A stretch of 64,000 nt of DNA from Flavobacteriaceae bacterium PRS1 (lineage in GTDB: Bacteria > Bacteroidota > Bacteroidia > Flavobacteriales > Flavobacteriaceae). Position 1 is the first letter of the stretch. Each line of letters opens with the position of its first letter. Both the position numbers and the translations under genes were made by a program. The notes under the pieces are model-generated. The model did no database searches. It was not told the DNA's origin and was given only the letters and a program-made list of their open reading frames with translations. The stretch spans positions 39,647-103,646 of the forward strand of contig RDRZ01000006.1 of the NCBI GenBank assembly GCA_003709165.1. Direction: 5' to 3'. This document shows, in pieces, positions 12,284 to 62,400 of the stretch.

Positions 12284-12361
12284 TTTAATTTAATTAATCG
12301 AGAATCGCATGGATTATCATACGTAAACTTTTATCCCGAAAGTTTGACTTATTTTTTGTTG

Positions 12362-12575
12362 AAAATGGCAGGTCTCCTGACTTGTTTTTTGTTATTTCAC
12401 CTTCCCGAAATAATCAGTGGTACGAAGTAAATAACAACTCAAAATAATGAGGTGCCAAAATAAATTTGGCATAAACTTACAGTTGCGGGAACAGTTCAGG
12501 AATTAACGAATTACGAATTATTAAAAATCGTAAATCTAAAATCGTAAATCGTTGCACCTGATTCCCTTTTAATCG
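12362..12575 (-). ncRNA. Cobalamin riboswitch controlling the TonB-dependent receptor
   Basis: Read on the minus strand, the conserved B12 aptamer blocks appear in order: AAAAGGGAATCAGGTGCAA (12570 downward), CCCGCAACTGTAAGT, GCC and CCACTGA, CGGGAAGGTG, and the 3' block GTCAGGAGACCTGCC (ending at 12367). The receptor start is about 80 bases downstream. The element normally lowers expression when adenosylcobalamin is plentiful. The loop of P3 (CAGG at 12557-12560 pairing with CCTG at 12497-12500) is about 56 bases instead of a few, and contains CGTAAATC-type repeats. Confidence 0.93.
12526..12551. repeat. CGTAAATC repeat units inside riboswitch P3 loop
   Basis: Two copies of AATCGTAAATC separated by TAA lie within the loop of the riboswitch P3 stem, followed towards 12505 by ACGAATTACGAATTATT. 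The unit matches the intergenic repeats at 4616-4645 and 30739-30760, so this looks like a repeat insertion or expansion in a peripheral RNA loop. Confidence 0.7.
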
Positions 12576-12584
12576 ACGCTGTCG

Positions 12585-12603
12585 TCCCGAACTTGTGTCG
12601 GGA
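12585..12603. repeat. TCCCGA...TCGGGA palindrome upstream of the riboswitch
   Basis: A 6-bp stem TCCCGA/TCGGGA with a 7-base loop ACTTGTG. It belongs with the other CCCGA hairpins in this window (12163, 25861, 44866) and sits at the 5' side of the cobalamin riboswitch. Confidence 0.55.
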
Positions 12604-12707
12604 TCTCATAATAGTATCCTAAAATTCTTTTAACGACATTGTCAAACCAAAATTCATTGCGAAAATAAACAATTTGCTTTTTAATTTCATTGAAAAGTAA
12701 ATAATCT

Positions 12708-15062: not shown

Positions 15063-15843
15063 TAAACATATCATCCTAAAAACCGAAGCCTTATCCATAG
15101 GTTACAAATCCAAAAAATCACAAACTATCGTTGCTTCAAATATAAATATTGAATTATTTAAAGGTGAATTAGTCGGATTAATTGGTGCTAATGGTATCGG
15201 AAAATCTACACTATTAAGAACACTTTCCAAAGTACAACCTGATTTAAATGGAACTATTTTAGTACATAATAAAAATGTAGCACAATATAATTCTACTGAA
15301 TTAGCAAAAACATTAAGTCTGGTATTAACCGAACAAATAGTGTCTAAAAATTTATCTGTCTTTGAACTCGTTGCATTAGGCAGACAACCATATACCAATT
15401 GGGTTGGTAATTTAACCAAAAACGATATTAATATTGTAAATCAATCGATCAATCAAACTAATATTGAAGAATTAAAACACAAGAGATGCTTCGAATTAAG
15501 TGATGGTCAATTACAAAAGGTAATGATAGCAAGAGCGTTAGCACAAGATACCGATTTAATAATTTTAGACGAGCCAACTACACATCTTGATGTCTATCAT
15601 AAAACATCTATTTTAAAACTGCTACAAAAAATGACGAAAGACAGTAAAAAAACCATTTTATTTTCTTCTCACGAAATAGATTTAACGATTCAATTATGTG
15701 ATAAATTGATTATTATGACTGATGGAAAAGTGTTGATAGACACTCCAGAGAATCATATTAAACAAGGTAATTTTAATTCGCTATTTCCTAAAGATTTAAT
15801 TACTTTTAATAAGACAACCAAGACCTTTAAAATTAAAAAATGA
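15049..15843 (+). CDS. btuD: ABC importer ATP-binding protein (BtuD/FecE type)
   Basis: 264 residues. Walker A GANGIGKST (46-54), signature LSDGQ (150-154, Asp in place of the usual Gly), Walker B LIILDE (170-175), D-loop and H-loop (SSHEIDL) are all present. It powers the preceding permease. The GTG start at 15049 or a second GTG at 15058 both lie in a repeat; I keep the first. The stop codon overlaps the ATG of an MKRAC mini-ORF in the leader of the next gene (ATGA). Confidence 0.9.
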   Translation: MKLVSKHIILKTEALSIGYKSKKSQTIVASNINIELFKGELVGLIGANGIGKSTLLRTLSKVQPDLNGTILVHNKNVAQYNSTELAKTLSLVLTEQIVSKNLSVFELVALGRQPYTNWVGNLTKNDINIVNQSINQTNIEELKHKRCFELSDGQLQKVMIARALAQDTDLIILDEPTTHLDVYHKTSILKLLQKMTKDSKKTILFSSHEIDLTIQLCDKLIIMTDGKVLIDTPENHIKQGNFNSLFPKDLITFNKTTKTFKIKK

Positions 15844-15927
15844 AACGAGCGTGCTAAAAAGTTTATCACCTAAAGAAATGATTAATAGCGAACAGCATGT
15901 GTTCAGTTAAAAATAAAATTTATACAC
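15840..15927 (+). promoter_or_regulatory. Conserved leader with ultrashort ORFs, copy A (upstream of ChaN-like gene)
   Basis: Bases 15841-15895 match 49 of 55 positions of the leader of the lytic transglycosylase gene (copy B, 25879-25933 minus). It begins with the mini-ORF ATG AAA CGA GCG TGC TAA (MKRAC, 15840-15857) and contains a second mini-ORF at 15878-15910 (MINSEQHVFS). The last bases before the gene (AAATTTATACACATG) also resemble copies B and C. The arrangement suggests a control leader, possibly by attenuation or translation coupling; function unknown. Confidence 0.6.
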
Positions 15928-16782
15928 ATGAAACAATTACTACTATCAGTTTTTCTTATACTTTTTACATTAAGTTCATTTAGTCAAAAAAAAGAATCAC
16001 ATGTTATTTATAATGCTAAAGGGAAAAAAGTATCTTACAAAAAAATGCTAAAGACCATTGCTAAAAAAGACATTATTTTATTTGGAGAGTCGCATAATAA
16101 TCCTATTTCGCATTGGTTACAATATGAAGTGACAACAGATTTAAATAATACAAATCAACTTATTTTAGGAGCTGAAATGTTTGAAGCAGATAACCAAGAA
16201 GCCTTAAATGATTATTTAAGTGGTAAAATAGATGCCAAAGCTCTGGATACATTAGCAAGATTATGGAGGAATTATAAAACCGATTATGCACCATTGGTTA
16301 ATTTTGCTAAAAAAAACAAACTCACATTTGTTGCAACAAATATTCCCCGAAGATATGCAAGTATGGTTCATAAAAACGGGTTTAGTATTCTTGATTCTCT
16401 TCCTTCAAAAGAAAAGGAATGGATGGCTCCTTTACCAATGCCATTTGATCCTGAAATAGAAACTTATAAGAACATACTTAAACTAATGGGTGATCATGGA
16501 ACACCGGAATTGGTAATGGCACAAGCGACTAAAGATGCTACAATGGCTTATTTTATTTTGAAAAATTTAAAGGTCAATCATACTTTACTGCATTTTAACG
16601 GTTCGTTTCATTCTAATTATTATGAAGGTATTTTATGGTATATAAAAAGAGAACGACCTAATATTAAATACGCAACAATTACTACCGTATCTCAAGAAAA
16701 TGTGCATAAATTACTGGAAGAACATAAAAATAAAGCCGATTTTATTATTTGTGTAAATAGTAATATGACTACTACATACTAA
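15928..16782 (+). CDS. ChaN family (DUF399) haem-binding-like protein, exported
   Basis: 284 residues with a signal peptide ending LSSFSQK. The family hallmark is DIILFGESHNNPISHWLQYEV, followed by LILGAEMFEADNQEALNDYL and the late LKVNHTLLHFNGSFHSNYYEGI. ChaN-like proteins are surface or periplasmic proteins linked with haem and iron uptake. It follows the B12 importer but has its own conserved leader, so it may be separately controlled. It converges with rmuC, with only two bases between the stop codons. Confidence 0.88.
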   Translation: MKQLLLSVFLILFTLSSFSQKKESHVIYNAKGKKVSYKKMLKTIAKKDIILFGESHNNPISHWLQYEVTTDLNNTNQLILGAEMFEADNQEALNDYLSGKIDAKALDTLARLWRNYKTDYAPLVNFAKKNKLTFVATNIPRRYASMVHKNGFSILDSLPSKEKEWMAPLPMPFDPEIETYKNILKLMGDHGTPELVMAQATKDATMAYFILKNLKVNHTLLHFNGSFHSNYYEGILWYIKRERPNIKYATITTVSQENVHKLLEEHKNKADFIICVNSNMTTTY

Positions 16783-16784
16783 TT

Positions 16785-17906
16785 TTAGTCATCTAAACTT
16801 GGCTTATCTAACAACTCTGTTTCAAAATCAATTTGATTTTTCCCATCAGATATTTTCAAAATATCTTTGTCAATTTTTCTGAATTCCGAAGAAGTTGCGT
16901 TATAATGATTTACTGTAGTTTTAATTGTATTCCCTAATTTTTTATGATATTCTGAATAAGCATTGAGATGGTTTGATAATTTTTCTACATTATTTAAAAT
17001 AACATCTATTGATTTTTCAACCTTTAAATTATGTAAGGCTTTTACAGTAATTTGAAGCATAGGAAACAAACTCATTGGCGAAACTATCATCACTTTTTTT
17101 GTATATGCGTACGAAACTAAATCTTTCGAATTTATTTGAAGCGTACCAACTCGACTGTTCAATAAATCCTGATACAAACCATCTGCCGGAATAAACATGT
17201 AGGCATAATCAGTCGTTTTTTCGGTTGGTCGTATATATTTCGCAGTTTCATCAATTCTGGATTTAATATCAGCTTTAAAGCTCTTTTCGAGCATTTCTAT
17301 TTCACTTTTATCATCGCTTTCAATCATTTTATTATAATTGTCCAAAGAAAATTTTGCGTCTATCGGAATTATATAATCTCCTATTTTTACAATAGCATCA
17401 ACGGTTTCTCTATTGCTAAAACTGTATTGCATTTTAAAAAGTTCGGGAGGTAATACGTTTGCTAATAAATTTTCCAGTTGAATCTCTCCAAGAATTCCTC
17501 TTTGCTTTTGATTTCCCAAGATTTTTTCCAGAGTTTTCATTTGATTGGCAAAATTAAGCACTTGCTCGTTTGTGCCTTTAATCTTTTCAAGTTCAGTGGT
17601 TACATCTTTTATTACTTTGTTCGATTCAGAAAATTGTTTTTGCATATCTGTTTTCGAAGACTTCTGAAATTCATTTATTTTCAGGCTAATATCTTTGAGC
17701 TTACCTTCAATTTCCACCCTACTTTCTTTAGAATTACTACTAACTTCTTTTCGTATTTCTTTTATATCATTACTCAAATTGTTGGTAAGATGAACCAATA
17801 AATCATTAGATGATGAATCATTTTTGTTCTTATTGAAGAAAAAAATCATTATCACAACTGCAACTATAATGACAATTAGAATAACAACTAACAAAGTGGT
17901 TTCCAT
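16785..17906 (-). CDS. rmuC: DNA recombination protein RmuC
   Basis: 373 residues. An N-terminal membrane helix (LLVVILIVIIVAVVIMIFFF) is followed by a coiled-coil stretch to about residue 125, then the RmuC nuclease-like domain with GILGEIQLENLLANVLPP, VDAIVKIGDYIIPIDAKFSLDNY and TDYAYMFIPADGLYQDLL. RmuC limits inversions at short inverted repeats in E. coli, which is notable in a genome rich in palindromes. It is transcribed alone. Confidence 0.94.
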   Translation of the reverse strand: METTLLVVILIVIIVAVVIMIFFFNKNKNDSSSNDLLVHLTNNLSNDIKEIRKEVSSNSKESRVEIEGKLKDISLKINEFQKSSKTDMQKQFSESNKVIKDVTTELEKIKGTNEQVLNFANQMKTLEKILGNQKQRGILGEIQLENLLANVLPPELFKMQYSFSNRETVDAIVKIGDYIIPIDAKFSLDNYNKMIESDDKSEIEMLEKSFKADIKSRIDETAKYIRPTEKTTDYAYMFIPADGLYQDLLNSRVGTLQINSKDLVSYAYTKKVMIVSPMSLFPMLQITVKALHNLKVEKSIDVILNNVEKLSNHLNAYSEYHKKLGNTIKTTVNHYNATSSEFRKIDKDILKISDGKNQIDFETELLDKPSLDD

Positions 17907-18057
17907 TTAATCTATATATTGAACTTGTTTAAACGTATCGACTAAAATACCTTAATTAATTAGTTTTTGCAATGCTATTATTGTAATAATTTATTTTTTA
18001 AAAGTAAATTATCATTATTAAATTTAGTAATTTAGAATAAAATTGTTCCCTTTATAA

Positions 18058-18438
18058 ATGAAACGCAAATTGATAGTTTTATTGGTTTTGATGCTGTTGG
18101 CATTTGCAGGTTACAAATACATCTACCAAGACCATAGAGATATCCAAAAAGAGCAGGCAGAATTTGTTGTCTCTTCAACTTCAATAACAAAAGAATTTTT
18201 ACAAAAATCAATAGAAGCAGAAAAAAAGTACCTCAATAAAACTATTGAAATTAGTGGTGTTATTACTGAAATTACCGAAAATGATATTACCCTAAATAAT
18301 AATGTGTTTTGTCAATTTAGCAGTAAGATAACAACCTTATTCACTACTAAAGATTCAATTACAATTAAAGGAAGATGTATTGGTTATGACGACCTGCTTG
18401 AGCTGGTTAAAATTGATCAAAGCACAATAATAGAATAA
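18058..18438 (+). CDS. OB-fold (tRNA_anti-like) exported protein
   Basis: 126 residues. A signal/anchor helix spans 3-20. The mature part has KYLNKTIEISGVITEITENDITLNN, the pattern of the tRNA_anti-like OB-fold family found in exported Bacteroidota proteins, and ends ITIKGRCIGYDDLLELVKIDQ. It may bind a small ligand or partner protein at the envelope. It lies 11 bp before the DUF5777 barrel gene and appears to start the cluster up to 20279. Confidence 0.7.
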   Translation: MKRKLIVLLVLMLLAFAGYKYIYQDHRDIQKEQAEFVVSSTSITKEFLQKSIEAEKKYLNKTIEISGVITEITENDITLNNNVFCQFSSKITTLFTTKDSITIKGRCIGYDDLLELVKIDQSTIIE

Positions 18439-18449
18439 AGCTATATGGT

Positions 18450-19298
18450 ATGAAATATATATTTATTATCACACTTTGTTTTCCAATATTTACATATTCA
18501 CAAGACGATTTATTGAGTGAAATTGATTCAGACTCTGTTGGAATAGAATATGCAACTGCAGCATTTAAAGGATTAAAGATTGTTAATTTTGAATCTACAA
18601 AACTAGTAGCCAAAAAAGAACTTACTTTTATAGTTTCTCATAGGTTTGGTAGTATTGAGGATGGTTTTGACACTTTTTTTGGGCTTGATAATGCAGTAAC
18701 TCGATTGAATTTTGTTTACGGACTAACTGATAATTTTAATATTGGGATTTCACGTAGTTCTTACCAAAAAACGTATGAAGCTTCAGCCAAATACAGACTC
18801 ATTAGACAGCAAAAAAATGGATTTCCATTTACTATAGTTGGTTTTAATGAAATATTAATAAATACAGCTTTAGAAAAAGACAATTTACCAAAATTAGAAT
18901 TAAAACATCGTTTAAGCTATGTAGCACAAGTACTAATTTCAAGAAAAGTAAGTACAAATTTTTCTTTTGAATTAGCTCCAACATTCTTCCATGACAATTA
19001 TGTTATGCTAGATAGCCAAGACAATTCACAATTCGCGCTTGGGCTTGGTGGACGTTATAAATTAACTAAACGTTGGTCGTTAAATATGGATTATGGATGG
19101 CATTTAAACAGAGCTAACGATTCCCCTTTTAAAAACCCATTTTCCATTGGCGTGGATTTAGAAACTGGTGGTCACGTGTTTCAGATGCATTTTACCAATG
19201 CGCAACCTATGAATACAAATGGGTTTTTAGGTCAAAGCACTGGTGACTGGACGGATGGAAATATTTATTTTGGATTTAATTTAAGCAGAGTTTTCTAA
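18450..19298 (+). CDS. DUF5777 family outer-membrane beta-barrel protein
   Basis: 282 residues with a signal peptide (IFTYSQDD). Alternating strands and the start GIEYATAAFKGLKIVNFESTKLVAKKELTFIVSHRFG match the DUF5777 family; the C-terminus ends in phenylalanine (FNLSRVF), as expected for an outer-membrane barrel. In other flavobacteria such genes accompany cytochrome and YceI genes (recollection). The role is unknown; a conduit or scaffold for electron carriers is possible. Confidence 0.85.
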   Translation: MKYIFIITLCFPIFTYSQDDLLSEIDSDSVGIEYATAAFKGLKIVNFESTKLVAKKELTFIVSHRFGSIEDGFDTFFGLDNAVTRLNFVYGLTDNFNIGISRSSYQKTYEASAKYRLIRQQKNGFPFTIVGFNEILINTALEKDNLPKLELKHRLSYVAQVLISRKVSTNFSFELAPTFFHDNYVMLDSQDNSQFALGLGGRYKLTKRWSLNMDYGWHLNRANDSPFKNPFSIGVDLETGGHVFQMHFTNAQPMNTNGFLGQSTGDWTDGNIYFGFNLSRVF

Positions 19299-19315
19299 TA
19301 GTAAAGCAAATTATT

Positions 19316-19678
19316 ATGAAGAATTTTATTTTATTCGTTTTTACAGTTTCAATTATCTTTAGTTGTACAAATGTAAGTGAAGATGATTTAATTGATGTTA
19401 TTGAGCCGCCTCTGGTAGTTACTTATAATGCTGATATAAAAATCATTATAGACAATAATTGTTTAAATTGCCATATATCACCACCAATAAATGGAGCAAA
19501 CATACCTTTGCTAATATTCGAAAATGTAAAAAATGGCGTGGAAAACAATAATTTAATAAATAGAATTTCTAAACAAGCTGGTGAAAGTGGTGCAATGCCT
19601 TTTGGAGGTCCAAGGTTACCACAAAATTTAATTGATTTATTAATACAATGGGAAGCTGATGGATTATTAGAAAATTAA
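19316..19678 (+). CDS. Single-haem (CXXCH) lipoprotein, cytochrome c-like
   Basis: 120 residues. The lipoprotein signal ends in VSIIFSCTNVSED. The mature domain has one haem c motif (CLNCH, near residue 48-52) and a later GAMPFGGPRLPQNLIDLLIQWEADG with the Met that often serves as the axial ligand in planctomycete/bacteroidete-type cytochrome domains. It is tethered to a membrane by lipid. It lies 17 bp after the DUF5777 gene, consistent with one operon. Confidence 0.82.
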   Translation: MKNFILFVFTVSIIFSCTNVSEDDLIDVIEPPLVVTYNADIKIIIDNNCLNCHISPPINGANIPLLIFENVKNGVENNNLINRISKQAGESGAMPFGGPRLPQNLIDLLIQWEADGLLEN

Positions 19679-19727
19679 TTGATTCTAAATTGGTAAGATT
19701 ATTGCTATAATTATTTAAATTATACAA

Positions 19728-20279
19728 ATGATGAAAAAAGTAACTTATTTAATACTACTACTTGTTAGCCTAAGTATTACTTCACAAAACAGATATTTAA
19801 CTAAAACAGGAACGGTTGAATTTGAAGCATCAGTCCCTTCTTTCGAAGAAGTAAAAGCTATAAATAATTCTGTTACTGCTATTATTAATTCTGAAACTGG
19901 CGAATTTGCCGCTTTAGTGCTAATTAAAGGTTTCCGGTTTAAAAATGCGCTTATGGAAGAGCATTTTAATGAGAACTATGCAGAATCCGACCTATATACA
20001 AAAGCAACTTTTAAAGGAAAAATAATAGATTTTTCTTTAGATGGTTTAAATTCTGAAGTTAAAACATTTAGATTAACAGGTGTATTAACCTTTCATGGTA
20101 AAACAAAAAAATTAGAAGGATTAAATTTAAATATTACAATCAATGAAAATATCATCACTATTTCTGGAAAATTTACAGCTGATGCTTCCGATTTTGGCAT
20201 TAAAATTCCAAAAATAGTCAAGAGTAAAATCTCTGAAGATATTACAGTTTCATTCAAATTCGAGTTAAAAAAGAAATAG
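19728..20279 (+). CDS. YceI family lipocalin-like protein
   Basis: 183 residues with signal peptide (LSITSQN). YceI features are the start TKTGTVEFEASVPSFEEVKAINNSVTAIIN, the middle YTKATFKGKIIDF and GVLTFHGKTKKLEGL, and the end IPKIVKSKISEDITVSFKFEL. YceI proteins form a periplasmic barrel that binds polyisoprenoid or quinone-like lipids. Its place after the cytochrome lipoprotein suggests a role in electron or quinone handling (inference). It converges with the cupredoxin gene, two bases apart. Confidence 0.92.
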   Translation: MMKKVTYLILLLVSLSITSQNRYLTKTGTVEFEASVPSFEEVKAINNSVTAIINSETGEFAALVLIKGFRFKNALMEEHFNENYAESDLYTKATFKGKIIDFSLDGLNSEVKTFRLTGVLTFHGKTKKLEGLNLNITINENIITISGKFTADASDFGIKIPKIVKSKISEDITVSFKFELKKK

Positions 20280-20281
20280 CA

Positions 20282-20875
20282 TTATTGTTTAACAAAACGC
20301 TTGGTATGCGTTGCGTTGCTTGTAGATACTCTTACTAAATAAACGCCTCTACTCCAACTTGAAATATCTATAGGAGTTGTTGTTATCTCATTATTATAAA
20401 TTCGTTTTCCCAATACATCAAATACTTCTACTTTGGCATTGGTTATATTATTTGGCAACTCAATATTTAGATTTAGAGAAGACGGGTTTGGTTTAATTAA
20501 AAAGCTCTTTAAAGAAAAATCTTCAATACCCAAAGGAGCAGTTACAGTTATTGTTCCGTACATAGTTAAAGGGTGAAAATCACATTGATAATCATTTGTT
20601 CCAATAGTATTAAAAGTTTTGCTAAATGAATTTGGCATTCCAGAAAGAGAACCACTATCAAAAGTTTCAGTGCTTCCTGCCTTATTTGTTACTGTATGAG
20701 TCGCTACATTATCATTCCAAATCCATTCTACAGTATCACCAACTTCTATTGTTAGGTCAGCTAGCAAAGGTGTGGTATCACTATTAATATCAAAAGTCCA
20801 CTGTATTTGATGTGTAGTTTGAGCATTTAAGTCAAAAAATGAGAAACATAATAAAATAAGTAATTTTGTTTTCAT
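20282..20875 (-). CDS. T9SS-sorted cupredoxin (plastocyanin/azurin-like) protein
   Basis: 197 residues. After the signal peptide (LNAQTTH) comes a cupredoxin domain with the first copper His in NVATHTV and the Cys-His-Met loop CDFHPLTMYG. The C-terminal 75 residues form a type A T9SS sorting domain (KPNPSSLNLNIELPN, VFDVLGKRIYN, SWSRGVYLVRV, KRFVKQ). It is thus a secreted or surface-attached blue-copper electron carrier. It faces the cytochrome/YceI operon and is preceded by a leader resembling those at 15840 and 25934. Confidence 0.9.
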   Translation of the reverse strand: MKTKLLILLCFSFFDLNAQTTHQIQWTFDINSDTTPLLADLTIEVGDTVEWIWNDNVATHTVTNKAGSTETFDSGSLSGMPNSFSKTFNTIGTNDYQCDFHPLTMYGTITVTAPLGIEDFSLKSFLIKPNPSSLNLNIELPNNITNAKVEVFDVLGKRIYNNEITTTPIDISSWSRGVYLVRVSTSNATHTKRFVKQ

Positions 20876-20964
20876 GTGTCTATATTTATAGTTTTTTAAT
20901 GGTCACATGTAACATCCATATAGTAATTCTCTTGAGTATCGAAATTTAGTAAAGGATGTTTCAT
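20876..20964 (-). promoter_or_regulatory. Leader with short ORF, copy C (weaker member), upstream of cupredoxin gene
   Basis: The last 34 bases before the ATG resemble copy B (ATGACC-type start, A-run, TAAATATA-ACACATG end). The first bases (ATGAAAC, CTAAA, ACTCAA, GAAT) also line up loosely. Here the first ATG opens a 22-codon ORF (20896-20964) beginning MKHPLLNF and ending MDVTCDH. Homology to copies A and B is plausible but not strong by eye. Confidence 0.4.
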
Positions 20965-21033
20965 AACTTTTTTGTTTTAAAATTACAAAAAAATAAGTTA
21001 CATGACCTATACTAAAATGTTAAAAAAGGAAAT

Positions 21034-23886
21034 TTACTTACTCAAATACATTTTACGTCTGGAGTACAGTTCATAAAACTGATCGTCTTTTAAGTTGTCG
21101 ATAAACAAAATACTTTCTCCAGTACTTTTCATTTCGGGTCCCAGTTTTTTGTTTACGTTTGGAAATTTATTAAAAGAAAATACTGGCTGCTTAATGGCGT
21201 ACCCTTTTAATTGAGGATTAAAATTAAAATCGGTTACTTTCTTTTCGCCTAACATAACTTGTGTTGCATAATTTACATAAGGCTCTTTATAGGCTTTAGA
21301 AATAAATGGTACTGTTCGCGATGCTCTGGGATTGGCTTCTATAATATAAACCATTTCATCTTTTATGGCAAATTGTATATTAATTAAACCAACAGTGTTT
21401 AATGCCAATGCTATTTTTTTAGTATGATCTTTAATTTGCTGCATGACTAAATCTCCAAGATTAAATGGTGGCAATGTCGCGTTACTGTCCCCCGAATGGA
21501 TTCCGCAAGGCTCTATATGCTCCATAATACCAATAATATAGACGTTTTCGCCATCGCAAATTGCATCTGCTTCCGCTTCTATAGCACCATCGAGATAATG
21601 ATCTAACAGTAACCTATTTCCTGGCATTTTGCGAAGTAAATCTACGACGTGTTCTTCTAATTCTTTTTTATTAATCACAATTTTCATGCCTTGTCCTCCT
21701 AGTACATACGAAGGGCGAATAAGGATTGGAAAACCTAACACATCTGAAATAATCATAGCCTCATCTGCAGATGTAGCGATATCAAATTCTGGGTAAGGAA
21801 TATTAAGCTCCTTTAATAATGTTGAAAAATTTCCTCTATCTTCGGCTAAATCCAAAGATTTGTAAGTTGTACCAATAATTTTAATTCCATATCGATCTAA
21901 TTTTTCAGCCAGTTTTAAAGCGGTTTGCCCACCAAGTTGCACAATCACACCTTCAGGTTTTTCGTGCTTGATTATATCGTAAATATGTTCCCAAAACACA
22001 GGTTCAAAATAGAGTTTATCTGCAGTATCAAAATCGGTTGAAACGGTTTCAGGGTTACAGTTAATCATAATGGTTTCATAGCCACATTCAGCAGCAGCCA
22101 ATACACCATGAACACAGCAATAATCAAATTCAATGCCTTGACCAATTCTATTTGGTCCCGAACCCAAAACGATAATTTTTTTCTTATCGGAAACTACACT
22201 TTCATTATCTGCAAAACGTTTGCCATCTGCTGTTTCCAATTCATTTTCGAATGTAGAATAATAATACGGAGTTTTCGCCTTAAACTCGGCAGCACAAGTG
22301 TCAACAAGTTTGTAAACACGATTAATATTTAATTCTTCACGTTTTTTGTACACCTTACTTTCCAGGCAGCCCAACATATAGGCTATTTGCCGATCTCCAT
22401 ATCCTTTTTGCTTGGCTTCAAGTAATAAATCACGCTCTATAGTATCTATATTATAAGTTGAGATTTCTTTTTCTAAATGATAGAGTTCTTCATATTGTTT
22501 CAAGAACCACATATCAATTTTAGTAATCTCATGAATTCTGCTCAACGGAATTCCCAATTGAATAGCGTCATAAATCACAAAAACGCGATCCCAACTTGCA
22601 TGGGTAAGTTTACTAATTATTATATCGTAGTCTTTATATCCTTTTCCGTCAGCTCCAAGACCATTACGATTAATTTCTAAAGATTGTGTTGCCTTATGTA
22701 GTGCTTCCTGAAACGAACGCCCAATTCCCATAACTTCACCAACCGATTTCATTTGAAGCCCAAGAGTTCTATCGCTTCCTTCAAATTTATCGAAGTTCCA
22801 ACGTGGTATTTTTACAATAACATAGTCTAATGTTGGTTCGAACAATGCCGAAGTAGATTTAGTGATTTGATTTTGTAGTTCGTCTAAATTAAATCCAATA
22901 GCTAACTTTGCAGCAATTTTTGCAATAGGATAACCTGTAGCTTTACTGGCTAATGCTGAAGACCTAGAAACACGCGGATTAATTTCTATAGCAATAATAT
23001 CTTCATTCTCGTCGGGACTTACAGCAAATTGTACATTGCATCCTCCAGCAAAATCGCCAATACTACGCATCATTTTAATAGCCATATTTCGCATTCTCTG
23101 GTATGTTGTATCACTTAAAGTCATCGCTGGAGCTACAGTTATGGAGTCGCCTGTATGAATTCCCATAGGATCCATATTCTCTATCGAACAAATAATAACA
23201 ACATTATCGTTTGAATCTCTTAACAATTCTAATTCAAACTCTTTCCAGCCAATAAGTGCTTTATCAATCATAACCTCATGGATAGGAGATATTTCCAAAC
23301 CACGAGTTAACAATTCGTCATATTCTTCCTTATTGTGTACAAAAGATGCTCCAGCACCACCAAGTGTAAACGATGCTCTGATGACTAAAGGAAATCCAAA
23401 TTCTTGAGCAATTTCTTTACCTTTTAAATAGGATGTGGCTGTTGCCTGAGGTGCCATTGGAATCCCAATTTTATGCATCAAGCATTTAAACTGTTCTCTG
23501 TCTTCTGTTATATTAATGGCATCAATATCAACACCAATAATTTCTATATTAAAATCTTTCCAAATCCCTTTTTCATCGGCTTCAATACATAAATTAAGAG
23601 CTGTCTGCCCTCCCATTGTTGGCAATACAGCATCAATTTGAGGATGTTCTTCAAGTATTTCTACAATAGACTTAGTTGTTAATGGCAATAAATAAACATG
23701 GTCTGCCATTGAGGGATCTGTCATTATTGTTGCAGGATTAGAATTTATAAGAACAGTTTCAATTCCATCTTCGCGTAAGGAACGAAGTGCTTGAGTTCCA
23801 GAATAATCAAATTCACACGCTTGTCCAATAATTATTGGTCCAGATCCAATTATTAAAATAGAGTTAAGGTTTTTTCTTTTTGGCAT
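21034..23886 (-). CDS. carB: Carbamoyl-phosphate synthase large subunit, short form without C-terminal allosteric domain
   Basis: 950 residues. Two ATP-grasp halves are visible: the first from SILIIGSGPIIIGQACEFDYSGTQ, the second from KIIVLGSGPNRIGQGIEFDYCCVH, with matching EINPRVSRSSALASKATG and EANPRASRTVPFISKAYK ends. It makes carbamoyl phosphate for pyrimidines and arginine. The chain stops right after LGPEMKSTGES, so the MGS-like regulatory domain (about 120 residues in E. coli) is absent. The small subunit is not in the window. It has its own promoter core behind the rpmH terminator. Confidence 0.97.
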   Translation of the reverse strand: MPKRKNLNSILIIGSGPIIIGQACEFDYSGTQALRSLREDGIETVLINSNPATIMTDPSMADHVYLLPLTTKSIVEILEEHPQIDAVLPTMGGQTALNLCIEADEKGIWKDFNIEIIGVDIDAINITEDREQFKCLMHKIGIPMAPQATATSYLKGKEIAQEFGFPLVIRASFTLGGAGASFVHNKEEYDELLTRGLEISPIHEVMIDKALIGWKEFELELLRDSNDNVVIICSIENMDPMGIHTGDSITVAPAMTLSDTTYQRMRNMAIKMMRSIGDFAGGCNVQFAVSPDENEDIIAIEINPRVSRSSALASKATGYPIAKIAAKLAIGFNLDELQNQITKSTSALFEPTLDYVIVKIPRWNFDKFEGSDRTLGLQMKSVGEVMGIGRSFQEALHKATQSLEINRNGLGADGKGYKDYDIIISKLTHASWDRVFVIYDAIQLGIPLSRIHEITKIDMWFLKQYEELYHLEKEISTYNIDTIERDLLLEAKQKGYGDRQIAYMLGCLESKVYKKREELNINRVYKLVDTCAAEFKAKTPYYYSTFENELETADGKRFADNESVVSDKKKIIVLGSGPNRIGQGIEFDYCCVHGVLAAAECGYETIMINCNPETVSTDFDTADKLYFEPVFWEHIYDIIKHEKPEGVIVQLGGQTALKLAEKLDRYGIKIIGTTYKSLDLAEDRGNFSTLLKELNIPYPEFDIATSADEAMIISDVLGFPILIRPSYVLGGQGMKIVINKKELEEHVVDLLRKMPGNRLLLDHYLDGAIEAEADAICDGENVYIIGIMEHIEPCGIHSGDSNATLPPFNLGDLVMQQIKDHTKKIALALNTVGLINIQFAIKDEMVYIIEANPRASRTVPFISKAYKEPYVNYATQVMLGEKKVTDFNFNPQLKGYAIKQPVFSFNKFPNVNKKLGPEMKSTGESILFIDNLKDDQFYELYSRRKMYLSK

Positions 23887-23910
23887 TGGTGTTTGTAGCT
23901 TTTAATTGTT

Positions 23911-23918
23911 CAAAAATA
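23911..23918 (-). promoter_or_regulatory. -7 promoter core of carB
   Basis: On the minus strand TATTTTTG matches TAnnTTTG, 24 bases before the carB ATG and just downstream of the rpmH terminator, so carB has its own promoter. Confidence 0.5.
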
Positions 23919-23938
23919 GGTATCAAACAGGTATAAAA

Positions 23939-23965
23939 AAAGGCGTTACGTATAGTAACACCTTT
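23939..23965 (-). terminator. Rho-independent terminator of rpmH
   Basis: On the minus strand the stem AAAGGTGTTAC/GTAACGCCTTT (one internal mismatch, 5-base loop) is followed by a T run. It separates rpmH from carB. Confidence 0.85.
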
Positions 23966-23988
23966 AATATATTAACAATTGTTAATCA

Positions 23989-24150
23989 TTATTTTTTATG
24001 TCTTGTTTCTGAAGACACAGATAATTTTTTTCTTCCTTTTGCTCTTCTACGAGCTAAAACTTTTCTACCATTTACGGAAGCCATTCTTTCTCTAAAACCG
24101 TGTTTATTTCTTCTTTTTCTTTTTGACGGTTGAAACGTTCTTTTTGGCAT
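23989..24150 (-). CDS. rpmH: 50S ribosomal protein L34
   Basis: 53 residues, from [20 protein letters not shown] through [20 protein letters not shown] to SSETRHKK. This is the complete L34 pattern with a short C-terminal extension typical of Bacteroidota. Very basic, part of the large ribosomal subunit. Not next to rnpA here. It is followed by a strong terminator and preceded by a TATATTTG promoter core. Confidence 0.98.
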
Positions 24151-24213
24151 TGTCTTATATTTTTAAAAACTAATATTCTTTTTTAAAGTTGAGAGATATC
24201 TCAAAACTGCGGG

Positions 24214-24221
24214 CAAATATA
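24214..24221 (-). promoter_or_regulatory. -7 promoter core of rpmH
   Basis: Minus-strand TATATTTG matches TAnnTTTG about 64 bases before the rpmH ATG. The intervening leader contains a GAGATATCTC palindrome of unknown role. Confidence 0.5.
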
Positions 24222-24277
24222 CAAAGAGTTTTTACTTTGACATACCTAAAATTAAAAATATTTTGAATTGTTTTTAC

Positions 24278-24285
24278 TACCTTTG
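24278..24285 (+). promoter_or_regulatory. -7 promoter core of the TPR-like membrane protein gene
   Basis: TACCTTTG is a textbook TAnnTTTG element 23 bases before the ATG at 24309. Confidence 0.6.
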
Positions 24286-24308
24286 CATTCTCTTAATTAA
24301 ACAAAAAA

Positions 24309-24887
24309 ATGTACAACAAAAATATAAAACTTTTTATTGCTATTTTAATTATTGCTTATGCTGGGTATCAATTTTATGAAGGATTAGTTGGTAATGGTAT
24401 TATGTACCTTCTGTTATCCACAATATTTATATTTCTTTATTTTAAAAATGAATTTATTCTACTTGCATTTTTAAAGTTGAGAAAACAAAAATTTGAAGAT
24501 GCCAAAAAATGGTTGGATAAAATTAAGAATCCAAATAGTGCTTTAACTACCAAACAACAAGGCTATTTTAACTATTTAAATGGAATTATGGTTTCGCAAA
24601 CCAATATGAATGAAGCTGAAAAATATTTTAAAACTGCTATTTCTTTAGGTTTATCTATGGATCATGATCTGGCAATGGCAAAATTAAATTTAGCTGGAAT
24701 TGCGTTTAGTAAAAGACGTAGACAAGAAGCAAACAAATTACTGTATGAAGCACAAAAACTTGACAAGAGAAATATGTTAACTGACCAGATTAAGATGATG
24801 AAACAACAAATGAAGAAGGCACAAATGCCAAATCTACATTATGGAAGTCCAACATCCTCAAGGCAAAATAGACGTAGCCGTCGTTAA
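24309..24887 (+). CDS. Membrane-anchored TPR-like protein
   Basis: 192 residues. Two membrane helices (about 7-25 and 29-50) are followed by TPR-like helical pairs: KFEDAKKWLDKIKNPNSA, KQQGYFNYLNGIMVSQTNMNEAEKYFKTAISLGL and DLAMAKLNLAGIAFSKRRRQEANKLL. The C-terminus is basic (SSRQNRRSRR). It probably mediates protein contacts on the cytoplasmic face; no specific function is known. It converges with the lytic transglycosylase gene. Confidence 0.75.
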   Translation: MYNKNIKLFIAILIIAYAGYQFYEGLVGNGIMYLLLSTIFIFLYFKNEFILLAFLKLRKQKFEDAKKWLDKIKNPNSALTTKQQGYFNYLNGIMVSQTNMNEAEKYFKTAISLGLSMDHDLAMAKLNLAGIAFSKRRRQEANKLLYEAQKLDKRNMLTDQIKMMKQQMKKAQMPNLHYGSPTSSRQNRRSRR

Positions 24888-24903
24888 TAGTTATAGGTTT
24901 GTA

Positions 24904-25830
24904 TCAAGGAATTGAATAATACCCATCTTTTGGTATTTCTATCAAATATTCTTTTCTCGATTTATTATTAAGATGTGCTTCTCTTAACCAAGGGTTATGC
25001 AATTTTAATATTTTATAATTAATTCCAAATTGTTTTGAAAACGCTATAAAATCGGTAACTACAGTATCAACCGAAACTGTATATGTAGGAATTGAATTGT
25101 AAAGGTCTTTATATCTAAAATTGAAGCCATATTTGTCAGGGTTATTTAATATTTCCTTTAGAGCAACTATTCTAAAAATATATCTTCTTGTTTCTTCGCC
25201 TAAAAGCAAATCGTAATAATTAGTAACCGATTGACTATTTAATCGTCTAGAAATTCCAGTTATTCCAGCATTGTATGCTGCCGCCGCAAGCGTCCAGGTT
25301 CCGAATTTTTCTTTAGCTTCCAGCAGGTATTTACAGGCGGCTTCAGTAGCTTTTTCCAGATGATAACGTTCGTCAACATTTGTATTAATTTCCAAACCAT
25401 TTTCTTTTCCAGTTGCCTTCATTATTTGCCAAAACCCTCTTGCATTAGCTGGTGAGACCTCATTTGTTAATCCGCTCTCAATAACTGCAAGGTATTTAAA
25501 ATCGTCTGGAATTCCGTTTTTAGCAAGAATTGGTTCAATTACTGGAAAGTACTTGTTGGCTCGTTTAAACATTAGCAAACCATTAGATTGCCAATACGTA
25601 TTTACAAGCAGCTCTCGATCCATTCGTTCTAAAATGTCTGGATTATTTAAGGGCATTGCTTCACCAGAAAAATCTAAATTTTCTGGTATGTTTAATGCAT
25701 AAACATTATAATCGTTAATCATTTTCTTTTCTAAATTATCGTCGCTTGGAGCATCTTGAACAGCAAAAATCAACAATCCAGACACACTTAATACACCAAC
25801 GAAAGCCAAAATGTTTTTAATAATTTTCAT
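24904..25830 (-). CDS. Lytic transglycosylase (SLT, MltD-like)
   Basis: 308 residues when started at the ATG at 25830, which begins the signal sequence MKIIKNILAFVGVLSVSGLL; an in-frame TTG at 25854 lies in the conserved leader and is less likely. The SLT domain shows the catalytic-Glu motif AVIESGLTNEVSPANARGFWQIM and AAAAYNAGITGISRRL. It cleaves peptidoglycan glycan strands in the periplasm. No LysM domain is obvious. The gene carries leader copy B upstream. Confidence 0.92.
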   Translation of the reverse strand: MKIIKNILAFVGVLSVSGLLIFAVQDAPSDDNLEKKMINDYNVYALNIPENLDFSGEAMPLNNPDILERMDRELLVNTYWQSNGLLMFKRANKYFPVIEPILAKNGIPDDFKYLAVIESGLTNEVSPANARGFWQIMKATGKENGLEINTNVDERYHLEKATEAACKYLLEAKEKFGTWTLAAAAYNAGITGISRRLNSQSVTNYYDLLLGEETRRYIFRIVALKEILNNPDKYGFNFRYKDLYNSIPTYTVSVDTVVTDFIAFSKQFGINYKILKLHNPWLREAHLNNKSRKEYLIEIPKDGYYSIP

Positions 25831-25934
25831 GTGTTTATATTTATTATTTTTCAAAGGTCATCCCGATAATTATCGGGACTGTTCGCAATTAATCATTCCT
25901 TTGAGTGATAAGCTTTTTAGCATGCTCGTTTCAT
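25831..25934 (-). promoter_or_regulatory. Conserved leader with ultrashort ORFs, copy B (upstream of lytic transglycosylase)
   Basis: Reading down from 25934, the leader starts ATG AAA CGA GCA TGC TAA (MKRAC, 25917-25934) and matches copy A at 49 of 55 positions. A second mini-ORF (25870-25896) reads MINCEQSR, its end formed by an inserted TCCCGATAATTATCGGGA hairpin (25861-25878). After the hairpin come ATGACC, an A-rich run and TAAATATAAACACATG. Same orientation and similar distance to the gene as copy A. Confidence 0.6.
25861..25878. repeat. TCCCGATAATTATCGGGA palindrome in leader copy B
   Basis: A perfect 18-bp palindrome of the CCCGAT...ATCGGG family. It is absent from leader copy A at the same point, so it is a separate insertion that also truncates the second mini-ORF. 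Confidence 0.8.
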
Positions 25935-25984
25935 ATTTCAAATTTTATTTAAATGTATAAAAAAAATACTTTAATATCTTTATT

Positions 25985-26647
25985 TTAACTTAAAATGAGT
26001 TTAGGAAGATTCTCGTTAAACCATTTATATTTATTAATGATCATAATATGTGTGCCTCCTTTTACAATTATACAGTCTTTAATATTTTGTATAGGAAAAA
26101 CAGCATCTTTTTCACCATGAATATGAATGATGTTAGGTAACGATCTATCTTGTTTCCAGCATACCATTTGCTCTATTGCCCAATCAAGATAACGTTTATC
26201 GTTTACTGATAAATATTTTTTATATAGTTCTACCCGTTTTGAAGCCGTTTCTCCAAAAGCATATTTAGCAAGAGCTTCAACATTGCTTATCAATTGAGTA
26301 GGAATCAATTTATAGGCTTTCGTTCTTTTAGCGATTTTCATTCGTTTGGGTAATTCACTACTATTTTTAACACTCGAAACTACAATCAATTTTTTTAGTG
26401 TTAGAAATTTACTCATTTCCTGAACAATAATCCCACCAAAAGAAACACCTATCAATACACTATTTTTATACTCCACTTTTTTGGCCAATCTTTTGGCATA
26501 ATCTTCAATACGTTCTTTAGGAATTGGATTAATCCACTCTAACCAATGTATTTTGAAAAGGTTTTCTTGTAATTTTATATGTTCAAAAATAGAAGGATTT
26601 GCTGCCATTCCAGGCATAAAATACACATGTATTATCTCTTGGCTCAT
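25985..26647 (-). CDS. Alpha/beta hydrolase
   Basis: 220 residues. The nucleophile elbow is GVSFGG (Ser in the GxSxG pattern); the later HIHGEKDAVFPIQNI and VKGGTHIMIINKY supply the probable Asp and His. No signal peptide, so cytosolic. The substrate is unknown. It is divergent from the small GNAT gene, and the 105-bp gap carries promoters for both. Confidence 0.82.
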   Translation of the reverse strand: MSQEIIHVYFMPGMAANPSIFEHIKLQENLFKIHWLEWINPIPKERIEDYAKRLAKKVEYKNSVLIGVSFGGIIVQEMSKFLTLKKLIVVSSVKNSSELPKRMKIAKRTKAYKLIPTQLISNVEALAKYAFGETASKRVELYKKYLSVNDKRYLDWAIEQMVCWKQDRSLPNIIHIHGEKDAVFPIQNIKDCIIVKGGTHIMIINKYKWFNENLPKLILS

Positions 26648-59484: not shown

Positions 59485-62400
59485 ATGAAAAAAGTTATCT
59501 CTCTAGTAATGTTATTGTGCATTACACTGCTTTCCGCACAAGAATTCTCAATGGATTTAGTAAAAAATATGAAACCTCGTAACATTGGTCCCGGAGGTAT
59601 GTCCGGTCGTGTTACAGCGATAGATGTTGTACATAGCAATCCAGATATTATGTATGTAGGCACTGCCTCTGGTGGTTTATGGAAATCTACTTCTGGTGGA
59701 ATTACTTGGAACCCTGTTTTTGAAAAAGAAGTCACTGCTTCAATAGGTGCAGTTGCCATTCAGCAATCAAATCCTAGTGTTATTTGGGTAGGCACCGGTG
59801 AAGGAAACCCAAGAAATAGTCTCAATGGTGGTTATGGTATTTACAAATCATTAGATGGTGGCAAAAACTGGATAGCAATGGGATTAGAAAAAACCAGAAA
59901 TATCCATCGTGTTATTATAGACCCAACAAATCCAGATATAGTTTATGTTGCTGCTATCGGTTCTCCTTGGGGAGAACATCCAGAGCGTGGCGTTTTTAAA
60001 ACTGTAGATGGTGGCGAGACCTGGAATAAAATATTGTTTGCAAATAATAAAACTGGAGCAGCCGACTTAGTGATGGATCCTACAAATCCTAACAAATTAA
60101 TTGCTGCCATGTGGGAACACAAACGTGATCCTTGGTTCTTTAAATCAGGTGGAGAAGGTTCTGGTTTACACATTACTCATGATGGTGGAAAAACTTGGAA
60201 AAAAGTTACAGATAAAGATGGTTTCCCAAAAGGTGATTTAGGTCGAATTGGGATTGCCATTGCAGCTAATAAACCTAATATTATTTATGCTTTAGTTGAA
60301 GCAAAAAAGAATGCTCTTTACAAAAGTGTGGATGGTGGTTTTAAATGGAAAAAAGTAAATGATAATTCTAGCGGAAGAGGTTCTGGAGGTATTGGAAACA
60401 GACCTTTTTATTATTCTGAAATATATGTAGATCCACAAAATGAAAACCGAATATATTCTGTCTTTACTTATGTAAATGTAAGTGAAGATGGTGGTAAAAA
60501 ATTCAATCAGCTTATGCCTGCTTATGGTGTTAGTAATGGTGTACATCCAGATCATCATGCATGGTGGATTCACCCAACCAATGGTCAATTTATGATTGAT
60601 GGTAACGATGGAGGATTGAATATTACAAAAGATGGTGGAAAAACATGGCGTTTTATTGGTAATTTACCTGTAGCTCAATTTTATCATATTAATGTAGATA
60701 ACGAATATCCTTATAACGTATATGGAGGCATGCAGGATAATGGGTCTTGGCGTGGTCCGGCTTATGTTTTAAGAGCGCAAGGTATAAGAAACTCGTATTG
60801 GCAGGAAATTTCGTTTGGTGATGGATTTGATGTGGTTCCAGACAGAGACGATTCGCGTTATGGATGGTCTATGAGCCAACAAGGTTTTGTAAGTCGTTAC
60901 GACTGGAAAACAGGAAACAATTATATTGTAAGACCTACGCATCCTGACGCTGTTGTTAAACTGAGGTTCAACTGGAACTCAGCAATTAATATCGATCCTT
61001 TTAATAACAGTACTATTTACTTCGGAAGTCAATTTGTACACAAATCGACTGATAAAGGCTTAACATGGCAAATTATTTCTGATGACTTAACAACCAACGA
61101 CCCTGAAAAATTAAAACAAAGCGAAAGTGGTGGCTTAACAATGGATGCTACTGGAGCTGAAAATTATTGTACAATCATAGTGATTGAACCTTCACCTGTT
61201 GAAAAAGATATGCTTTGGGTTGGAACCGATGATGGTCGTGTACATTATACCCAAAATGGAGGTGCAACTTACACAGATGTTTCAAAGAACATTAAAGGCT
61301 TACCTGCTGGTAGTTGGATAACACAAATAAAAGCCTCCAATAAAAATAAAGGTGAAGCATTATTAGTCGCTAACGATTACAGACGATTTAATTTTACACC
61401 TTATGCATCTAGAACTAAAGATTATGGTAAAACTTGGAAGCGTATTGTAGGCGAGAATGATGTAGAAAGTTATGCATTATCTATAGTTGAAGATATTGAA
61501 GAACCTAAGCTTTTGTTTTTAGGCACAGATGATGGCTTATACATTTCTGTCAATGCCGGGAAAAAATGGATGAAGTGGACAGAAGGTTTCCCCACAGTTT
61601 CGGTAAAAGATCTGGTGATTCAACCTCGTGAGCACGATTTAGTAATAGGCACTTTTGGTCGTGCTGCCTGGGTTTTAGACGATATTAGACCATTAAGAGC
61701 GATTGCTAAAAACAATCAAGTTCTTAGTAAAAAATTAGAATTATTCTCTCCTCCAACAGCATATCAAGCAGTTTACCGACAACCAACAGGAAGTCGTTTT
61801 GGTGGTGATGCACTTTATAATGGAGAAAATAGAAAACGTGGTGCACAAATTTCGTATTATGTTACAATTGAAAAGAAAAAAGAAGACGACAAAAAGAAAG
61901 ACGAAGATGAAGAGGTTAGTGAAAAAGACGAAACCAAAGTGAAATGGGATTCAATCACAATGAAAATTTATGATGGTGAACGTTTGATAAGAACTCTAAA
62001 ACAGAAAGCACCTAAAGAAACCGGGATTCATAAATGGACTTGGAGAATGGATGAAAAAGGTGGAGACAGACCCTCAAGAACCATTAAAAAAAGTAAAAGA
62101 GAGCCAGGAGGAACTAGAGTAAAGCCAGGTACATACAAAGTAGTATTGAGTTTTGGAGATCAGACTTCAGAAGAAATGATTACCGTAAAAAGTGATCCTC
62201 GTTTAACTATTTCTACGAAAGCAATCAACGAAACTTATAGTGCTTCAAAAGAGATTCAAAATATAAGCCAAACTGCTGCAGATGCAGTAAAACAACTTGT
62301 TGAAAGTAAAAATATCGCAAAAGATTACATTAAAAAACTGGCAAAATTAGATAAGAAGCAATACAAAGATCAAATAAAAGCTTCAAAAGATATTATTAAA

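Follow-up and report, generated by a model that had tools for sequence, protein, structure and literature searches.

Miniature inverted-repeat transposable elements (MITEs) are short, non-autonomous and dispersed and leave a short repeat on both sides, and insertion sequences of the IS200/IS605 family lack terminal inverted repeats. Here we describe an element that is similar to the former in those respects and, like the latter, has no inverted ends; its termini, ATGAAA[CG/TG]... and ...CANATGAAA, are direct copies, which sets it apart from MITEs. The element, about 90 letters long, occurs three times in a 64,000-nucleotide stretch of Flavobacteriaceae bacterium PRS1 (assembly GCA_003709165.1, contig RDRZ01000006.1, positions 39,647 to 103,646 of the forward strand; hereafter, the window), and is dispersed, structured and very probably mobile, occurring at unrelated genes in many Bacteroidia. 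On balance, we favor the view that it is a small, likely non-autonomous mobile element that lies at ATGAAA, mostly at gene starts, and carries an internal guide matching both of its ends, through which an enzyme acting in trans likely directs the insertion.

The closest described system is that of IS200/IS605 elements (IS608, ISDra2 and non-autonomous derivatives). In the available part of the description of IS608, this element inserts 3' of a target that is kept in the left flank, and both the ends and the target are chosen by pairing with guides inside the element (PMC5934647). The present element also lies directly 3' of a short target, ATGAA(A), which comparison of empty with filled sites shows to be retained in the left flank (duplication of five bases would give the same picture), and complementarity within its sequence suggests that its ends and target may be recognized via an internal guide. 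Unlike the IS200/IS605 elements, it contains no tnpA; a single guide region with longer pairing serves both ends, in place of two separate four-base guides; and the target is ATGAA(A), mostly at start codons. Because the guide layout differs, there is no internal transposase and the association with Y1 transposases is modest, we do not claim membership in this family.

Other comparisons are more distant. Repetitive extragenic palindromic (REP) sequences and bacterial interspersed mosaic elements (BIMEs) are, in the available part of their description, small, dispersed, non-coding and structured, and are thought to be moved in trans by TnpA-REP (RAYT) (PMC8266576). The present element shares the small size, dispersal, structure and lack of coding capacity; however, REPs are palindromes preceded by a conserved motif, whereas the present element is not palindromic, has fixed ATGAAA ends and brings a start codon. 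Palindromes do occur within copies of one of its types (type I), but these differ between species at the same gene. The TAACTGA direct repeats of Beggiatoaceae and some Bacteroidetes similarly stand just upstream of the starts of unrelated genes and are suspected of horizontal spread (PMC4679880); they form heptamer arrays, for which the available part of that report describes no guide, fixed ends or duplicated start codon. Finally, attenuators with upstream open reading frames (ORFs) and riboswitch leaders also combine a mini-ORF with competing helices, but for the present element no regulon is seen, the peptide is not conserved, and copies are present or absent between close relatives.

Three copies in the window

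A first-pass annotation, made from the sequence alone, had noticed two near-identical blocks, 15841-15895 (plus strand) and 25933-25879 (minus strand). They are indeed identical at 49 of 55 positions, with the true first base one earlier, at 15840 and 25934, and a 22-mer common to both occurs twice in the window compared with a mean of 0.01 in shuffles. Both copies open with ATG AAA CGA GCn TGC TAA, contain a second frame starting MIN, end in an A-rich run and ACACATG, and are oriented along the next gene, all as annotated; the similarity extends past a middle that varies, as far as ACACATGAAA where that gene begins with its start codon.

Copy A (type I, 88 bp from the old ATG to the new one; 15840..15930, plus strand), with the ends ATGAAA and ACACATGAAA, stands at the start of a ChaN-like gene (15928..16782, plus strand), which is opened by its second ATG. 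Its old start codon, which opens the MKRAC-stop mini-ORF (15840..15857, plus strand), overlaps the stop codon of an upstream ABC ATPase (15841-15843), and the internal guide CATGTG (15896..15901, plus strand) is complementary to CACATG at the right end (15925-15930). Without copy A, the ChaN-like start would overlap the ATPase stop as ATGA (15840-15843); the insertion shifted the start 88 bp away. Copy B (type I, 104 bp; 25828..25934, minus strand) similarly opens a lytic transglycosylase gene (24904..25830, minus strand); it carries the old start codon and MKRAC-stop mini-ORF at 25917..25934 (minus strand), with the guide bases replaced by the 18-bp palindrome TCCCGATAATTATCGGGA (25861..25878, minus strand). 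Copy C (type II, 89 bp; 20873..20964, minus strand) opens a gene for a cupredoxin with a type IX secretion system (T9SS) sorting tail (20282..20875, minus strand). Its left end, ATGAAACATCC, is complementary at 10 of 11 positions to the internal GGATGTTACAT, its guide CATGTG (20909-20904) is complementary to CACATG (20878-20873), and the mini-ORF that reads from its old start codon is MKHPLLNFDTQENYYMDVTCDH-stop (20896..20964, minus strand). Pfam agrees with the annotated identities of the three genes (PF04187 for ChaN, PF01464 for the SLT transglycosylase, PF00127 for the copper-binding domain and PF18962 for the T9SS tail).

Copy C had been annotated as a weaker third member of the group and proved to be a genuine one, with the same right end. 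A covariance model built only from copies in other genomes matches 20870-20964 (minus strand, E 6.7e-8) and 15840-15933 (plus strand, E 6.4e-5) and, weakly, 25825-25934 (minus strand, E 0.075), all E-values being rough. A further match, at 61928-62020, reads as gene interior and was taken as chance.

Empty and filled sites at start codons

A filled site reads left flank, ATGAA[A...CANATGAA] and gene, with the element in brackets, and an empty site reads left flank, ATGAA and gene. We traced empty orthologous sites in close relatives, where the left flank is followed by ATGAAA and the gene, for dnaN, rplX, rpmC, mdh and the lytic transglycosylase. In the L16-L29-S17-L14-L24 ribosomal operon, the window's genome (G000; 2.4 Mb, 85% complete) carries two elements before rpmC, type III and then type I, and one before rplX; G001 carries one before each of the two genes; and in G002, G003 and G004 there are none, the left flank running into the gene ATG (rplX of G002 was judged from match coordinates only, the other empty sites being read directly, and rplX of G004 starts ATGAGA). 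At dnaN, there are two tandem elements in G000, one in G003 and none in G001 and G004, and, as far as it was read, the left flank of the filled G000 site does not differ from that of the empty G001 site before the ATG is reached. The lytic transglycosylase site is filled in G000, G001 and G002 and empty in G003, G009, G010 and G012, where the gene starts ATGAAG; mdh is filled in G000, whereas 13 of 14 other genomes lack the element by eye and G028 is ambiguous. The ChaN-like gene, with a type I copy in G000, a type II-like copy in G002 and none in G001, provides a less clean comparison because the flanks differ. The regions upstream of dnaN in G025 (L264) and of mdh in G028 (L271) resemble more diverged or shortened versions of the element.

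Parsing of the loci yielded 180 rows. Both ends were present in 171; a few of these rows have their right end in common, as do two from L157. Six of the 171 are first copies of tandem pairs, and at rpmC one element type occupies the old ATGAAA of another. That orthologous start codons occur with and without a copy, and that copies stand in tandem or within one another, argues for insertion. The bases common to both ends are the five of ATGAA because the sixth base at the right is not always A, and the junctions, as read, fit insertion 3' of ATGAA with ATGAA at the right end of the element or, equally, a five-base duplication. Slippage or gene conversion between A-rich leaders through the six bases ATGAAA, in place of transposition, would agree with ATGAAA being the sole sequence seen to be common to the recipients, but at dnaN neither flank is altered as far as it was read and guide pairing would have no role; we regard this route as quite improbable.

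Most of the insertions were detected in a single species of the genus. Among the copies fetched from G000-G004 (94 rows, of which one L223 row and one of two L385 readings are not real), 12 gene groups are filled in at least two genomes and the remainder in one only; 12 is a lower bound because the genomes are drafts and detection was by pattern, and etfB is a further shared group through a G001 copy outside the set. The inner palindrome also differs before the same gene, being TCCCGATAATTATCGGGA in G000 vs CATG or CCTGCCTGCGGCAGGCAGG in G001. In many G000 type I copies, TCCCGATAATTATCGGGA replaces the guide bases, such that CATGTG or TATGTG is kept in only 7 of 30 G000 rows, with a palindrome in most of the others; G001 and G002 often carry CCTGCCTGCGGCAGGCAGG beside the guide bases. 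Given this difference between copies before the same gene, species-specific palindromes probably invade the element after its insertion, and the palindrome of copy B is probably a later addition because the G001 copy before the same gene has CATG.

Most copies end at the start of a gene. In 149 of the 171 rows, the right-end ATG begins a frame that is 60 amino acids or longer or that continues past the edge of the locus, and 6 of the remaining 22 are the tandem first copies; the right end also opens a long frame in 62 of 66 copies collected with an inner pattern (see below), and long frames follow 31 of 40 model hits in the order and 23 of 38 distinct hits in the class. For comparison, among 777 ATGAA sites that are gene starts or non-genic (101 sequences, element-made starts included), 314 are gene starts, compared with 149 of 165 non-tandem type I copies (p about 3e-40), an excess that may reflect targeting, survival or both. 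The right end is ATGAAA in 159 of 171 rows, compared with 204 of the 314 sampled ATGAA starts, filled ones included, and ATGAAT, ATGAAG or ATGAAC in 8; copies lie in sense orientation to the gene because the target itself is ATGAAA. Hence the possibility that the first-pass annotation had raised against its own interpretation, a dispersed repeat unrelated to gene starts, was half right: this is a dispersed repeat, but one tied to gene starts. Some of the class hits without a long frame head tandem arrays (L563-L565). Three related genomes (L521, L522, L523) share a copy away from a start codon, with the right end CACATA and a guide, TATGTG, that matches it; this copy may be a fixed RNA or an ancient relic.

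The genes that carry the element include dnaN, rpmC, rplX, lpxB, mdh, ddl and cmk. The annotation had linked the blocks to genes for exported proteins, but hydrophobic N-termini are no commoner among element genes (72 of 146) than among other ATGAA-start genes (123 of 220, p 0.24); the count for all other genes is 238 of 579 (p 0.08). There is no evident regulon, and a regulon of exported proteins is rejected.

After insertion there are two start codons: the old ATG begins a mini-ORF, and the A-rich leader of the element with the second ATG precedes the gene. The MKRAC frame is simply ATGAAA followed by the type I left end, and the annotation had suggested a trans-regulated or translation-coupled leader, perhaps an attenuator responding to Cys or Arg, whose supply would be sensed by ribosomes on this frame. 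The leader family itself is real, located at gene starts in the orientation of the gene and equipped with a mini-ORF. In favor of the attenuator part, the frame hardly varies across the type I alignment, a constancy owed in part to the use of this sequence in finding the copies, and is exact through the stop in 60 of 94 genus rows. Against it, 11 pairs of same-gene copies from two species show differences at 8 of 198 positions in the first 18 bases and at 25 of 373 in the following 33-34. Of those 8 differences, 3 are silent and the other 5 alter an amino acid or remove the stop (3 of these in one decayed copy), and the sister types encode other peptides, ATG AAA TGA (MK-stop) in type III and MKHP-stop or longer in type II. 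Trans regulation of the leader is not supported. With the peptide not conserved and no evident regulon, Cys- or Arg-responsive attenuation is largely refuted and has, in our estimate, next to no chance of being correct; judging from these alignments, the peptide looks like a by-product.

Guide pairing and a possible mobilizing enzyme

Inside the element, TTnCATNTG can pair by complementarity both with the left end (helix P1) and with the right-hand CAN'ATGAA that holds the new start (helix P2). The two helices are not wholly exclusive: only the pairs of the old and new ATG with the same guide CAT compete, and the inner P1 pairs are compatible with P2. An inner-pattern collection (GCGAATTACATNTGAC), which leaves the guide base free and ignores the right end, comprises 68 rows, nearly all of type III with few exceptions (e.g. 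L106), and 66 of these have the right ATGAA. In those 66 copies, which were collected without regard to base -1 of the new start, the guide base pairs with base -1 in 61 (C-G 46, T-A 9, G-C 3, A-T 1, T-G 2) and mismatches in 5. In the alignment A1, which consists of 50 copies from this collection and was used for the covariance model, RNAalifold forms inner P1 and the whole of P2 together; 99.3% of the P2 cells are paired, with 9 double changes, all at one pair, and 95.5% of the P1 cells are paired, with 12 double changes at two pairs. For both helices, the observed percentage paired, number of double-change cells and covariation score were reached in 0 of 500 shuffles. The base at -3 of the new start is C in 98 of 104 type I copies and in 50 of 50 A1 rows, as guide pairing demands, within an A-rich leader. 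Bacteroidetes have no Shine-Dalgarno sites, favor A at -3 and avoid AUG near starts, according to the available part of a survey of their starts (PMC6847099). The presence of C despite this host preference suggests that the right end is shaped by pairing, not by translation.

In the proposed mechanism, the guide would recognize the ATGAAA target and an enzyme acting in trans would insert the element. The old start would then yield only a short dead peptide, and the A-rich leader with the second ATG would restart the gene after it, which is why insertions into start codons would survive. The enzyme is the weakest step of the scheme. Insertion 3' of a short target in the left flank, ends matched by an internal guide and the lack of inverted repeats are the layout of IS200/IS605 elements, and a single-strand HUH transposase of that type may therefore be at work. 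The element has no ORF long enough for an enzyme. In the 30 Y1 loci scanned, the type I left end (at most 2 mismatches) is absent; several of these loci show weak right-end-like matches and one, L325, a good match at a distance of about 0.9 kb from its Y1 gene. The palindrome of the window is absent from seven Y1 loci, one of which has another palindrome. With no left end at Y1 loci and a modest association, a Y1 transposase as a proven mobilizer is rejected.

Several observations weigh against guide-directed insertion by such an enzyme. On the side of the pairing, the number of pairs with a double change was reached in 414 and 359 of 500 shuffles and the number of pair types in 91 and 171 of 500, and because the aligned copies share ancestry, the shuffles overstate their independence. 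At the outer edge of P1, where the old ATG faces CAT, there is hardly any variation, so that these pairs show complementarity without covariation, and in the type I of the window itself the middle of P1 is unpaired. Covariation of P2 within type I, where 2 of 3 double changes are paired against an expectation of 0.4, is too weak for an argument from that type alone, which we dropped. The 78 distinct model hits speak for the pairing, with C-G in 29, T-A in 39, T-G in 1 and a mismatch in 1 at P1 base 7 and with P2 pairing in 71 of 74 (4 lack a readable guide), but they were selected by a model that scores these same pairs. On the side of placement and mobility, 9 of 40 order hits and 15 of 38 class hits are not at a 60-aa frame, non-detection in draft genomes is weak evidence of absence, and no movement was seen. 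With regard to the enzyme, the alignment fold consists of P1 and P2 only, without IS608-like subterminal hairpins with separate guides; no mobilizing enzyme was identified in a search that covered Y1 transposases and no other enzyme family; Y1 genes are only modestly commoner in genomes with the element (28 of 50, the 50 being a hand count of all genomes with a pattern match to either type I or type III, vs 129 of 347; p 0.013) and are undetected in the copy-rich genomes G306, G089, G287 and G009. An autonomous longer relative was rejected as well, there being none among the fetched loci.

The same anatomy could, then, be moved by another enzyme, either an RNA-guided recombinase of the IS110 kind or a tyrosine or serine recombinase, or by an RNA-based route. 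The support for insertion is good, whereas the Y1 association is weak and Y1 was not detected in some copy-rich genomes, and both RNA and single-stranded DNA could be the medium of the pairing; however, there is neither a candidate, the search having covered Y1 only, nor an autonomous copy among the fetched loci. We consider this alternative possible but tentative. A different reading of the two covarying helices, which compete for the CAT opposite both start codons, is a cis-regulatory RNA switch, with translation of the mini-ORF determining whether the guide covers the old start or the new one. The sense orientation of the copies at start codons would suit such a switch, but the genes have no common function, the element is missing from orthologues in close relatives, some copies precede no long frame, and the genes remain where the palindrome has displaced the guide in most G000 rows; a switch therefore appears unlikely.

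Distribution in the Bacteroidia

In G000, the left end is found within 3 mismatches at 22 places and the right end at 25, two of which (L070, L071) have no left end in the 150 bases read. A related pattern matched in 10 of 40 relatives, three of which (G005, G015, G022) have one 3-mismatch match each, no more than a control pattern gives. Among named genomes, a pattern scan gave at least 112 stretches, mostly in Flavobacteriaceae (Lutibacter, Winogradskyella, Lacinutrix, Kordia, Psychroserpens, Aquimarina), and the matches listed include single metagenome-assembled genomes titled Salinivirgaceae, Prolixibacteraceae, Cytophagales and Chlorobiota; Lutibacter flavus DSM 27993 has several copies. 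Of 397 sampled genomes of the family, 26 contain the type I left end. The A1 covariance model has matches in 42 of 296 genomes sampled from the order (Flavobacteriales) and 39 of 315 sampled from the class (Bacteroidia); copy numbers from these scans are lower bounds, at most 13-14 candidates being scored per genome. The hits read closely were 40 chosen in the order (20 from the window's family, 20 from other families) and 40 of 43 in 38 class loci, 78 distinct hits altogether. A few type I and type II copies (L024, L060, L334) contain a further inner module of about 45 bp (GTTCAACGACTCC ... GGAGTTAATGA).

With copy A as the query, no match was found in 50,697 phage and 72,556 plasmid records, and phage or plasmid cargo is rejected accordingly. 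Searches of open-licence papers listed none whose title or abstract opening describes such an element. A known RNA family is likewise rejected, no Rfam family matching the element: at the gathering score, Rfam matches only a cobalamin riboswitch in the window, away from the elements, and a permissive search of 15700-26100 and five type III loci gave only hits below that score. The riboswitch (RF00174, 73 bits; 12350-12611, minus strand) precedes a TonB-receptor-like gene, and the opposite-strand genes after it resemble, by eye, a B12 uptake operon (substrate-binding protein, permease, ATPase).

The chances seem to us about even that these copies represent a class-wide Bacteroidia family of mobile elements that are directed by a guide and naturally target the start codons of translation, with one internal guide that reads both the ATGAAA target and the element's own CAN'ATGAA end, and whose insertion gives the gene a new leader and start. 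If so, the leaders and working start codons of many Bacteroidia genes, including those for ribosomal proteins and DNA replication, would have been recently supplied by a selfish element, which would explain odd mini-ORFs, misannotated starts and lineage-specific leaders. Landing on a start codon and bringing a replacement would allow harmless mobility in a compact genome. The paired guide makes the choice of target directly testable. This would be a natural, possibly reprogrammable, start-codon-seeking insertion system, and the enzyme behind it could provide a compact guide-directed insertion tool.

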